The position numbers and the translations under genes were made by a program. A stretch of DNA of 64,000 nucleotides, from contig JAGPYM010000008.1 of NCBI GenBank assembly GCA_020736575.1, positions 868,001 to 932,000 on the forward strand. The letters are read 5' to 3'. A model generated the notes under the pieces. The model made no database searches. It saw nothing but the letters and a program-made list of their open reading frames with translations, and was not told the DNA's origin. Below are positions 23,832-29,285 of this stretch, in pieces. The first letter of the stretch is position 1; every line of letters begins with the position of its first letter. This DNA is from Thelonectria olida (Eukaryota; Ascomycota; Sordariomycetes; Hypocreales; Nectriaceae).

Positions 23832-26127
23832 ATGGCAGCGCTCTCGAAACTCGTCCTCCCCGGCGATCGCAAGCTCCGCGCCGTTCTCTCCCGCCTCATC
23901 GGCCTGTACGTCTCCAACCGCTCGCGCATCTCGCGCGCCGTCTGGATCACTCTCTTCCTCGCCCTTGCAAATCGTATCCGCCATGCCATCTCGGAACAAA
24001 AGGCTGCCTCCGCTCGCGAGGCTACTCAGCGCGCCGCCCGTCGCGGTACCACGTCCAGCTCCAGCGGCGAGGAGACGCCCAGGAAAAAGGTCGAGCTGAA
24101 TCGCGAGTTCTTCCGCTCCCTGCTTCGCCTCTTGCGCATTGTCGTCCCGGGCTGGAAAAGCAAAGAGGCCAGGCTATTGATGAGCCATAGCTTCTTCCTG
24201 ATTCTCAGAACCCTCATTAGTTTGCGCGTTGCCGAAATGGACGGCGCAATCGTCAAGGCCCTCGTCAAGGGAAATGGCAAGGAGTTCCTCAAGCGCATTG
24301 TGTGGTGGATGCTCATTGCCGTACCGGCCACCTTTACGAACTCAATGGTGAGCATTATAACGAGCTGCCTACATCAAATTGACGTGTGCTTACATCCAGC
24401 CAGCTGTCCTATCACCAGGCCGAGCTATCGCTCAAGTATCGATCGCGCCTCACGCAATTCATCCACGACAAGTACCTGTCAAACTTGACCTTCTACGGCA
24501 TCTCAGCGCTGGATGATAGAATAAAGAACCCCGACCAGTTGATCGCAGTTGATGTGTCCAAGTTCTCAAACAGTCTTGCCGAGCTCTACAGTAATCTGGC
24601 GAAGCCCATGCTCGACATGGTAAGTTTACCATGTCAAACTGTCTCGCCGATCACCACTGACCCTGACCAGACCATCTACACCTACTCCCTTTCCAAGAGC
24701 GTTGGCGGCGAGGGCGTCGTTTTCATGTCTCTCCTTGTGCAGCTTTCAGCCAATGTTATGAGGGCTCTGACTCCGCCATTCGGCAAGTATGTCGCTGATG
24801 AAGCCCGCCTAGAAGGCGAATTCCGCTTCCAGCATTCGCGCCTCATTGACTATAGCGAAGAGATTGCTCTCTATGCCGGCCACAAGGCCGAAAAGGACAC
24901 CCTTGACAAGGGCTACTTTACTCTGATTAAGCACGTTAACTACATCCTGCGCCGTCGCTTCTATCACGGATTCATGGAGGATTTTGTCATCAAGTATTTC
25001 TGGGGCGCCTTGGGGCTGTTGCTCTGTAGTATGCCCGTCTTCATCAAGATGCCTGGACACATCGCTATGAACATGGGTGACCGAACAGAGGCCTTCGTCA
25101 CGAACCGGCGCATGCTGCTATCTGCATCCGATGCCTTTGGCCGCATTATGTTCTCGTACCGAGAAGTCATGGAATTGGCTGGATACACGTCCCGTGTTGC
25201 GACACTACTGGATGTCATGGAAGATGTGCAGTCGGGCCACTTCGAGAAGAAACTCGTCTCCGCTTCTGGCACAGAGAATAACGAGGCCGTCCTCAAGGGA
25301 CGAGGGACTGTTCACGAGAGCAAAGACATTACCTTCATCGATGTGTAAGTCCCATCTGAACGGAGATACGCTGTGATACCATGCTAATGTTCATCTCTAG
25401 ACCCATCATCTCCCCCAACGGAGATGTCCTTATCAAAGCAATGTCCTTCTCCCTCAAGCACGGCGACCACCTGCTAGTAGTTGGGCCCAATGGCTGCGGT
25501 AAATCCTCCCTCTTCCGTATTCTCGGTGGCCTCTGGCCCGTCTATGGAGGTACTGTCTACAAGCCTCCCTTCCACGCCATTTTTTACATCCCTCAGCGAC
25601 CCTACCTCTCCCGCGGTTCTCTCCGCCAGCAAATCATCTATCCAGACTCCCTGCGCCAGATGCGTGCACGTGGAGTCACCGACGCTGACCTCCTCGATAT
25701 TCTGAAGACGCTGGGTCTCGAGCACCTGGTTGATCTCTATGAAGAAGCCTGGGATGCGGAGGCTGAATGGCGCGATGTCCTCTCTGGCGGTCTTCAGCAG
25801 CGTGTCGCCATGGCCCGCCTCTTCTACCACCGCCCACGCTACGCTATTCTCGACGAGTGCACAAGCAGCGTCACCCTCGACACTGAGAAGGTCATGTATG
25901 ACACGGCAAAATCCCTCGGTATTACCCTCATGACTGTCAGCCATCGCCGCAGTCTGTGGAAGTACCACACCCATATCCTTCAGTTTGACGGACAAGGCAA
26001 CTACGTCTTCACCCGTCTCGACGCCGACCGACGACTCAAGCTTGAGGATGAGCGCGAGGACCTCGAGATTAAGCTTCGGCAAGTCCCTGAGCTCGAGCGT
26101 CGCATTGCCGAGTTGACGGCTGCGTGA
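23832..26127 (+). CDS. PXA2: Peroxisomal long-chain fatty-acyl ABC half-transporter (ALDP/Pxa2-type, subfamily D)
   Basis: Half-size ABC transporter that, with a partner, imports very-long- or long-chain acyl-CoA into peroxisomes for beta-oxidation. Exons 23832-24347, 24404-24619, 24671-25344 and 25401-26127; 710 residues. The N-terminal membrane domain contains [27 protein letters not shown] and the ALD-type loop [14 protein letters not shown]. The nucleotide-binding domain shows Walker [10 protein letters not shown] (497-505), signature LSGGLQQR (596-603), Walker B AILDE (to 621) and the switch histidine in TVSHR. Intron 1 must use the second of two adjacent CAG acceptors; the first breaks the frame. 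Assignment to Pxa2 rather than Pxa1 rests on length and N-terminus and is less certain than the family. Confidence 0.93.
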
Positions 26128-26606: not shown

Positions 26607-29285
26607 TCAATCTGAATCCATATTCTCTGGGTGAAACTTGCACGTCTTGTCGTGGGCCGTGTTGTCACCAGCGACAATATCCCTATGGTTCGCACCACAC
26701 TCGAAGCAAAACTCGTGTCGACATTTGATGCCTGTGGGGAGTTAGCCATTCTTTGTGCTTGCAAGGCTTATCATGGCGACGGCGGCGGCGGCGTGTTGGA
26801 TCAGCGGCCACCATTGCACCTGATGCTATGGTGGCCTGTCCATTTCTGATAGCATCCCCAACAGAATTCGTATCTACATTTGATGCCTGCAAACAGTTGG
26901 CTTAATGCCCTTGTAATCAAGGTGGAAAGATGTTGTCCGCACGCACCAGTTCAGGGGACGGGGGAGACTTCGGGGGGCAGAAAGGGTGATATTAAAGGAA
27001 GCAATAGGGGCAACTTACAAGTCATATGGGAGCTGCAGCAATGTTAGTGCCTGACATATACTCAGATACATATGAGTTCAACATACCATCCGTCGTTCTT
27101 TTCAATGGCCCATCCACATCCTGGGCAAGGTTTTGTCGTTTGGCTGACCATGCGTTCGCTCATCTGCTCTTCGCGCTTGCGTCTCGCAGCAATTTTGCGC
27201 ACTAGCTCTGCGGCTTTCTTCGCCTGCTCCCGCTCTCGCCGAGCCCTCTCTTCTCGGCGCTGCATCTCTGCGTGGTCATCGGCAAGTAAGTTCTGGGCCA
27301 TGGCCCTGTCAGCCTCTAGTTGAGCTCGCTGGGACTCAGACCAGGCCTCATTTTCTATCTCTAGGCGAGAACGGAAGTTGTCTGGGTCGGCAAGCAGTTG
27401 GTCGTACTCTTCGCATGTCAAGTTCTCATGCCAGGGAACAGAATGATGGAAGCAGAAGCGGTGACGACAATGTAGACATGTGACAATTGGCGAGTCGGTG
27501 CCCGACTCGTGGATTTGTCCGGATCCGCACCCAGATGTGCACCAAACGAAGTTGTCGGCTTCTGACATGGCAGCGCGAAGCGCGAGCGTTTCATATCTAA
27601 GGTATCGTAGGGTTAGGTCGAGTTCAATAGAGTAATTCATCAGGGGACATGCCTCATAAATGTTTGCTTGTTAGCATATCGCTGAATGTCAGCATACTCC
27701 AGCACTTCGCGGCATTCGGGACATCTGATATCAGTCCAGAGTTTGCTGTTTATATCAGATTCAATGGATAATTGGATACACTCCAGGCATGTACTTGGAG
27801 CATGGCTGCACGAAGCGGTGATGGAAAATCGGGGGAAGAACTCGACACCCTTTGTTTCGGTGCAAACCACACAGTCAATTTCACCGACGACAGTGCTGAC
27901 TGGCACACGTTGGCGGGTGACAATGACATCTGGGGTATCTGGTGACTTCTGGTATTGCTGACCAAAGCTGTATATAAGAGAGGCAGTCTTAGTATAATCG
28001 AACAAACACGATAGTCATAATCAATGCAACGGTATATGATAAAGCAACGCCACTAATACAGGGGAATAACCAAGACAAGACCACACGGCCAAGAAACGAA
28101 AAGCCTAGGAAAACCTTCCACTAGAAAGTGCCTGGCATAGAGGAAACTGGAACTGGGGGGTTCTCGGAGGACCTACCGGATATCATCAGCTACATCGTCC
28201 GCAGACTGATCCAATTGGCGAAGGTATGCCACAGTCATGGCATTGTCATGCTGCTCAAAGAGGGCAACGTACGGGTTAACAGAGCTCGAGGAAGAGGCTG
28301 GAGGTTCAGCATCGGGCTCGCGGCGAGCCGTCTCGGTTTGTGGCTTGAGAGATTGAGTGGGAGGATCCTCGAAGCCGTCAATACCCAGGTCGGCCAAGTT
28401 GAGGATGGCGGCAGAGAGGGGAGCGTATCCACGTCGAGGCACGACAGTAGGTGTAGGTGGCCGGGGTGAGGTCTCGACAGTCGTACTAGTAGTTAGGCTG
28501 AATGAGGAAAACTCGTCATCGTCCAGGAGAACTGGCTTGTTATAGGCGAAAGCTGGGCGTGCTGATGGTGGAGCAGGGGCATCTGGGATTCGGTCTTGAG
28601 ACGTTGATGGATCCAACATGATGACCACCTCTTGGTTAGACACAGTAGACCTTCGAGAATGATGAGATCTCGTCTCGGCTTGGTCATCAGCATTGTCTTG
28701 GTTCCGAGTTACTGCCAGCAACTCCCGAGGCGCGTCCTCCACAGGAATCTCGCCCACTTCCTCATCTGACTCTTCGTCATCGACCAGCCAAATATCATCG
28801 TCGCTGTCATCCCCAAAGCCACCCATGATATCTGGGTTCACCCTGCCATAGACGCCCGCGGTGACCAACATGTTGTTCCTAAGAGGCGTTGCTTCCACAA
28901 ACGGGACGTATTTGCGAGCATAAGGGTCGGACGCCGGAGCAGGCTCGTCTGTGGTAGCGGCTTCCTCAACTGGGTTCTCTTCCTCGTGGTGACTCGATTC
29001 GGCGCGGGCCAATACGGGTTCTGGAGGGGCGGGTGGTGATGGAGGGGCTGGAGGGGCTGGCGGCGCAGGTGGTGCGGGAGGGGGAAGGGCCCTGTATTCC
29101 CTTGGGTCTGTCTCGGTCGTTGAGGTGGAATATGTGTATCTGAATGGAGGGTTCAAATCGCTTCGGGTGGTGCTGGAGGTAGAGGCGTCGACCGAGCGGT
29201 ATTCCGGGGGTAGGTCCGTTGGGGTATCAGGCGCCTTCTTCTTCCGGAACACAGTGGTCGCCCTCTTTTTGAAGTTCTTGAACAT
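26607..29285 (-). CDS. RBR-type (RING-IBR-RING) E3 ubiquitin ligase
   Basis: RBR ligases accept ubiquitin from E2 on a RING2 cysteine, then pass it to substrate. Exons: 29285-28177, 27967-27653, 27596-27087, 27032-27019 (14 bases) and 26731-26607; 690 residues. The first 370 are disordered, with a PPAPPAPP tract and acidic FGDDSDDD and DDEESDEE. RING1 begins at about Cys402 (CVVC) and includes CSHAPSTC and RCPECREVLEY. IBR contains FVWCTSGCGSGQIH and CRHRFCFHH. A Lys/Arg/Glu coiled coil separates it from RING2: CPGC, IEKNDG, then predicted catalytic Cys645 in GCSHMTC, CIKCRHEFCFEC and a His/Cys tail. Intron 2 is GC-AG (27652-27597). A second candidate last exon at 26886-26801 would give a 677-residue form. 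Splicing is inferred from conserved RING2 spacing. Confidence 0.85.
26801..26886 (-). other. Alternative (or decaying duplicate) terminal exon of the RBR ligase
   Basis: Preceded by acceptor TTTGCAG. It starts with the same 11 bases as the distal exon (GCATCAAATGT) and reads, in the same phase, CIKCRYEFCWGCYQKW then GHHSIRC before TGA. It thus completes RING2 with all the metal ligands but a different tail. Farther along, a stretch near 26775 resembles the distal exon's HDKTCKFH but in another frame, after a GCC-repeat expansion. Either a true alternative last exon or a duplicated exon with a damaged tail fits. Confidence 0.6.
27019..27032 (-). other. 14-base microexon of the RBR ligase
   Basis: Flanked by acceptor GCTGCAG and donor GTAAG. 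It supplies the last base of the predicted catalytic cysteine codon, then Ser-His-Met-Thr, and the first base of the next cysteine. Leaving it out shifts the frame and stops soon after, in either terminal exon. Confidence 0.7.

Follow-up and report, generated by a model that had tools for sequence, protein, structure and literature searches.

The ascomycete Thelonectria olida encodes, in the 64,000-nucleotide (nt) window analysed here (contig JAGPYM010000008.1, positions 868,001 to 932,000), a RING-between-RING (RBR)-type E3 ubiquitin-ligase gene that possesses two tandem last exons behind a single splice donor. The gene lies on the minus strand at 29285-26607 of the window, and we refer to its proximal and distal last exons as P and D. 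Judging from the comparative evidence set out below, P and D are very probably old, retained alternative last exons of a fungal RBR ligase, selected by alternative 3' splice-site use.

The common 5' splice site (GTAAGT, 27013..27018) faces two acceptors, both CAG. The proximal acceptor (TTTGCAG, 26887..26893) closes an intron of 132 nt and opens exon P (26801..26886), which encodes CIKCRYEFCWGCYQKWTGHHSIRCNGGR and ends with a stop codon at 26803-26801. The distal acceptor (TCCCCACAG, 26732..26740) closes an intron of 287 nt measured from the same donor and opens exon D (26607..26731), which encodes CIKCRHEFCFECGANHRDIVAGDNTAHDKTCKFHPENMDSD before its own stop codon. The two exon starts, 26886 and 26731, are 155 nt apart; P and D share one entry phase (T|GC, in the codon of RING2 ligand C3), and their first 11 bases, GCATCAAATGT, are identical. 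Tandem exons with these starts, phase, acceptors and common bases had been proposed in the original prediction, made from the letters of the DNA alone, and every one of these features is found in the sequence. The DNA similarity between P and D is reached by only one of 2000 shuffles. A DNA pattern for C..C..[ED]-F-C...C has 10 matches in 52.5 Mb (the reversed pattern has four), and the only close neighbours among the 10 are the pair in the window and a second pair on contig C46. The exon structure is a reading of the sequence, backed by homologues that are continuous across the same places.

Splicing of the donor to P would bring translation to the P stop codon and leave D in the 3' untranslated region, and splicing of the same donor to D would remove P as intron. 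Because P carries a stop codon and splicing to D removes P, the choice between them would be exclusive without any extra mechanism. The predicted products are 677 (P) and 690 (D) residues long. The distal acceptor probably uses a CTAAC at 26741..26745 as its branch point; no CTRAC branch motif is present in the 45 nt upstream of the proximal acceptor, where the nearest sequence is gccaac. The ratio of the two forms could then be set by the two branch points, of which the distal one looks the stronger.

A search of the same genome with the RING1-IBR part of the protein found a single additional gene of the kind, located on contig C46 (locus L024); its two matching pieces are 50% and 39% identical. 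Its donor (HMT|gtaagc) is followed, in L024 coordinates, by a P exon at 1709-1630 and a D exon at 1570-1449, encoding CSQCRHEFCWACKARWNGSHSYDCSG and CSECHHEFCWDCLSNMKTIFKKGNKFHRATCPWHSDNIKA, respectively, each with its stop codon. Order and phase are those of the window gene. The introns measured from the donor are 84 and 223 nt in the C46 gene and 132 and 287 nt in the window gene, and the P and D starts are 139 nt apart in the former. A motif closely resembling a branch point precedes the distal acceptor of either gene (CTAAC in the window gene, CTAAT in C46) but not the proximal one, although this comprises two cases only. Among ten RING2-like loci of the genome (L001-L009 and L019, the last a weak match with an E value of 0.05), two half-RING2 motifs stand near the match in the window gene and the C46 gene only; seven others carry a single such motif, and L006 carries none. 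Because the same pair, in the same order and phase, is found in both genes, the pair would appear to predate their divergence and to have persisted through it, unless it has arisen twice. Independent duplication of the last exon in these two genes, and in different fungal classes, has a precedent of sorts in the tropomyosins of human, fly and worm, which are said in PMC9741552 to have non-orthologous tandem 3' exons. Such convergence is nevertheless unlikely, given the identical order and phase in the two genes and the constancy of the P and D spacing classes across groups.

Both ends are also found in other fungi. Three protein searches, one of them giving the best 120 of 171 matches, yielded 164 distinct homologues, many of which carry the UniRef name RBR-type E3. 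A strict pattern identified 22 P-like and 51 D-like ends, with seven that end otherwise, and a relaxed pattern without C3 added four P ends (P0045, P0050, P0053 and P0076) and nine D ends. The remaining 71 of 164 show neither end, and here the gene model often enters the intron or halts at it. It seems that tiny last exons defeat gene prediction, and the P/D pair may explain the irregular ends of many database models in this family. By record name, both ends occur within Fusarium, Colletotrichum, Tolypocladium (counting relaxed matches), Chaetomium and Aspergillus. Opposite ends are attached to closely similar cores: P0008 (P) and P0039 from Fusarium sporotrichioides (D) are 99.3% identical over 572 residues, P0146 from Aspergillus foveolatus (P) and P0129 from A. 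tetrazonus (D) 93.7% over 527, P0148 from A. nidulans var. acristatus (P) and the same P0129 92.4% over 527, and P0035 (P) and P0022 from Trichoderma atroviride (D) 84.7% over 667, all counted over aligned positions only, with the models of P0039 and P0040 skipping some 80 columns in the region of RING1. In the F. oxysporum-type group, P0067 (D) and P0084 (P-like, with altered spacing of the last ligand) are 99.5% identical over 581 residues. The D-ending P0007 and P0037 and the P-ending P0053, which all carry the name Fusarium, are nearly the same in the intron-derived residues that lead up to the swap. As a separate observation, P0157 from the bdelloid rotifer Adineta vaga has a D-type RING2 end very like the fungal one, possibly through transfer from a fungus or contamination.

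A test in shifted frames was applied to the models that enter the intron. It found 15 compatible places in 174,290, 10 of them in tail sequence that follows the start of RING2 and five elsewhere; the control is weak, as in the first 40 proteins, where three places were observed (two of the three in tails), shuffling the motifs still yielded 1.57 on average. In a refined version P0013, P0036, P0088, P0113 and P0147 were compatible with P only, P0121 with both and P0155 with D only; P0092, P0118 and P0126, with eight, eight and four residues left, gave no verdict. This outcome is one of compatibility, not proof, and we give it no weight.

Use of the proximal junction is indicated by a different class of record. 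Prodigal does not splice, and the tag 'lgn' carried by P0010 (34 members) and P0035 (eight members) is one that we take to denote Logan. Both proteins run without gaps across the exon 2/3, 3/4 and 4/P junctions to the P end; the exon 1/2 junction was placed by pattern for P0035 and by alignment for P0010, the pattern fitting neither P0008 nor P0010. Because Prodigal calls are unspliced and these open reading frames are nevertheless unbroken across the junctions, P0010 and P0035 most likely derive from RNA contigs, and the P junction would thus be in use in two fungi, one resembling Fusarium and the other Trichoderma. Logan proteins are described in PMC12424806 as Prodigal calls on assembled contigs of the Sequence Read Archive. 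Seven other members with this tag (P0079, P0113, P0121, P0125, P0126, P0130 and P0132) enter the intron or stop at its position. P0008 ('jgi', 11 members) may have a similar RNA origin. The evidence for D consists of annotated models and conservation, from which its use may be predicted.

The exchange would concern one half of the catalytic domain. The first two RING2 ligands, the catalytic cysteine and its x-His partner are encoded upstream and are common to both forms, and the last exon contributes C3 (two of its three bases), C4, the entire second zinc site (C5, C6, H7 and C8) and the tail. For HHARI, PMC3772753 gives C372, C375, H382 and C389 as the ligands of the second RING2 zinc and has W379 touching the loop that holds catalytic C357 and H359. 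By comparison with these site II positions and with spacing tables from homologues, each form has the complete RING2 zinc ligands, as had been predicted. In the window gene, P has the short ARIH-like spacing with Trp at C6+4; in D, 14 residues separate C6 from H7, and C6+4 is His. The tables comprise 23 P and 52 D ends, four of them from this genome and the others from homologues, and omit the seven odd ends, the 13 that fit the relaxed pattern only, the 71 with neither end and rows P0157-P0164. Their length classes were preset by the patterns (3-9 for P, 10-18 for D), but the narrow values within the classes were not: 6 or 7 residues separate C6 from the His in 23 of 23 P ends, and 14 do so in 51 of 52 D ends, with 11 in the remaining one. 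Position C6+4 is Trp in 21 of the 23 P ends and Tyr in two; in D ends it is His (40), Tyr (11) or Met (one), and in none of the 52 is it Trp.

Profiles and models place both forms in the RBR family. The Pfam IBR family is matched in both; IBR_1 (PF22191) scores above its cut-off in both, and IBR_2, with a cut-off of 27 bits, is exceeded by P (30.8) and missed by D (23.8). AlphaFold models of two homologues, built from input alignments of 33 and 29 rows, were inspected for their predicted local distance difference test scores (pLDDT). In P0006 (P end) block means are 78-87 over most of RING2, and in P0001 (D end) they are 81-89 over RING2, with a helix at 639-649 between C635 and H650. Foldseek matches both models to RBR structures with low template modelling scores.

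We propose that both forms would fold and be catalytically competent, and that they would differ in the packing of the second zinc lobe on the catalytic loop and in a helix that is exposed, and hence in ubiquitin discharge, substrate or partner. The chance that both are active and behave differently towards substrates or in discharge is about even. A less likely reading, and one we hold to be doubtful, ranks below it: only one end would be the working catalytic end, the other giving a less active or regulatory ligase (dominant-negative, autoinhibited or unstable), so that splicing would act as an on/off switch. The lack of an equivalent of HHARI W379 in D, and the higher score of P on the RING2 profile (49.9 versus 44.8 bits for IBR_1), would suit such a switch. 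Yet the D ligands are kept with their rigid spacing, the D RING2 of P0001 is modelled with good block means, and D is commoner than P in the fetched set (51 versus 22).

Several observations weigh against retained, alternatively spliced last exons. Codon differences between the window and C46 genes fit constraint weakly: 10, 9 and 16 at positions 1, 2 and 3 of the 26 codons of P, and 15, 17 and 27 in the 40 codons of D. RNA-derived evidence was found for P and none for D among the protein records examined, although D forms could be hidden within the same 90% clusters. Outside this genome, the coexistence of both exons would have to be read from protein models of different strains; DNA of relatives did not turn up in one scan each of viral_contigs and genome_contigs. 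In P0006 the nine C-terminal residues, H7 and C8 among them, have a mean pLDDT of 55, so that P is modelled worse than D. The predicted RNA fold is unremarkable (z -0.66), and RNA structure as a means of enforcing exon choice was dropped, 27 of 100 shuffles being at least as low.

Other points of this kind would suit a scenario in which each lineage has lost one of the exons, the window and C46 genes being rare double cases and the mixed records reflecting gain and loss rather than splicing. In P0130 the D half follows 44 residues of intron origin among which no P motif was flagged; P is therefore probably not universal, some lineages being without it. The end label is also clustered on a quick tree of the core (75 rows, 327 columns, with the odd ends P0084, P0087 and P0093 entered as P and rows P0157-P0164 excluded): it needs 13 changes against a shuffle mean of about 20.5, with none of 500 shuffles as low. 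This clustering could reflect a single annotation pipeline per genus or genuine lineage differences. Against lineage loss stand the 13 changes themselves, at least 10 of them forced by starred branches, and the opposite ends that occur on cores that are 92-99.5% identical in Fusarium, in the F. oxysporum-type paralogues and in Aspergillus. The near-identical residues that precede the swap in P0007, P0037 and P0053 also speak against it, and we regard lineage loss as quite improbable.

The original prediction had also raised the possibility that P is a duplicated exon in decay, on the grounds of a GCC-repeat expansion and a frame change in its tail, which would leave D as the sole functional end. 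Both of these lie downstream of the P stop codon and are not P coding sequence. Decay would accord with the lack of an obvious CTRAC motif at the P acceptor and with the degenerate P ends of the F. oxysporum/proliferatum paralogues P0084, P0087 and P0093, in which the last ligand is lost or moved; this is a further point against general retention, and the proximal exon may be decaying in that paralogue group. In the window gene, however, P retains every ligand and its coding part is conserved. Relatives have this form too, and P-type homologues hold their narrow spacing and mostly their Trp; unbroken P-ending reading frames occur in Fusarium- and Trichoderma-like sequences, and P is present in the diverged paralogue as well. 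We consider decay of P in the window gene to be very improbable, the least credible of the alternatives. The GCC run itself, at about 26792-26775, lies between the P stop codon and the D branch point and is noncoding in either form. An apparent remnant of D between the exons, the HDKxC-like 'HDKPC', is treated as chance, 81 of 2000 shuffles scoring as high.

Retained alternative last exons thus remain the preferred interpretation, and the central proposal of the original prediction, a ligase in which the choice of acceptor swaps the end of the catalytic domain, is favoured by the paralogue pair, by both ends in close relatives and by the unbroken P reading frames. Both ends are present in Sordariomycetes and Aspergillus in protein records and in the paralogue in DNA. 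It is somewhat more probable than otherwise that the switch arose before the main classes of filamentous ascomycetes separated and before the paralogue duplication, that it exchanges the entire second zinc lobe to give two catalytic behaviours from one gene, and that annotation pipelines mostly miss or break it.

The rest of the gene is common to both forms. Exon 1 (28177..29285) has the Met start and encodes the N-terminal region, as read from the translation and from homologue N-termini of the type MFRNFKK../MLRSLKN.., and exon 2 (27653..27967) is read as encoding RING1 (CVVC...CPEC). Intron 2 (27652-27597) looks like a GC-AG intron (AG|GCATGT ... CTTAG|A). Exon 3 (27087..27596) encodes the IBR (PF01485, E values 8.1e-21 and 6e-21), a long helix region and the first RING2 ligands, CPGC. 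It is followed by a micro-exon of 14 nt (27019..27032, CTCCCATATGACTT), which together with split codons encodes the catalytic Cys (GC-S-H), assigned by alignment with RING2 of solved RBRs, and HMT. The RING1-IBR-RING2 order comes from the Pfam matches together with inspection, the RING1 ligands and GCSHMTC being visible with no separate RING1 profile match. A convergent neighbour on the plus strand (23832-26127), by eye ABC half transporter-like and in three open pieces, stops some 480 nt short of the stop codon of D.

The usual view of alternative splicing in fungi is that intron retention predominates and that few outcomes are conserved at the protein level. A pair of exons that exchanges half of a catalytic zinc domain, and that persists in two paralogues and, judging by protein records, across classes, would clearly depart from that view. 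Alternative splicing in fungi can also yield cryptic peroxisomal C-termini that are conserved across species; there a short targeting tag is added, whereas in the window gene a zinc lobe would be exchanged, and neither of its ends (NGGR, DSD) has an SKL-like tripeptide.

The closest known parallel is tandem duplicated exon substitution, in which homologous tandem exons are interchangeable and the resulting proteins are identical save for one homologous region. P and D are likewise adjacent homologous exons in the same phase. PMC9741552 describes a human set of 236 such events, of which 77 swap C-termini, an enriched subtype, and its main text contains neither the word fungi nor the word yeast. 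The pair described here differs from the human set in belonging to a filamentous fungus, in having acceptors only 155 nt apart, and in encoding half of a catalytic zinc domain with the ligands retained. As both P and D are last exons, they are not strict mutually exclusive exons, which are internal, 3' and 5' exons being excluded in the same paper (PMC9741552).

Among RBR ligases, the solved structures matched by sequence are ARIH1/HHARI, ARIH2, CUL9, parkin and, in one of two comparisons, RNF31/HOIP. The window gene resembles RBR E3s in its RING1-IBR-RING2 order, its catalytic GC-x-H and its two RING2 zinc sites, and P has the ARIH-like spacing and Trp; unlike RBR E3s, the D end carries a long spacer before the last His ligand. 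No RBR with swappable RING2 ends turned up among the open-access papers searched, a search made below full-text level. The gene would therefore offer RBR biology a natural domain swap, with a constant catalytic Cys loop and a variable second zinc lobe, in which the roles of the Trp and of the inserted helix are testable. Tandem exon swaps, C-terminal ones included, are known in animals, and it is the swappable RING2 end of an RBR ligase that would be new.
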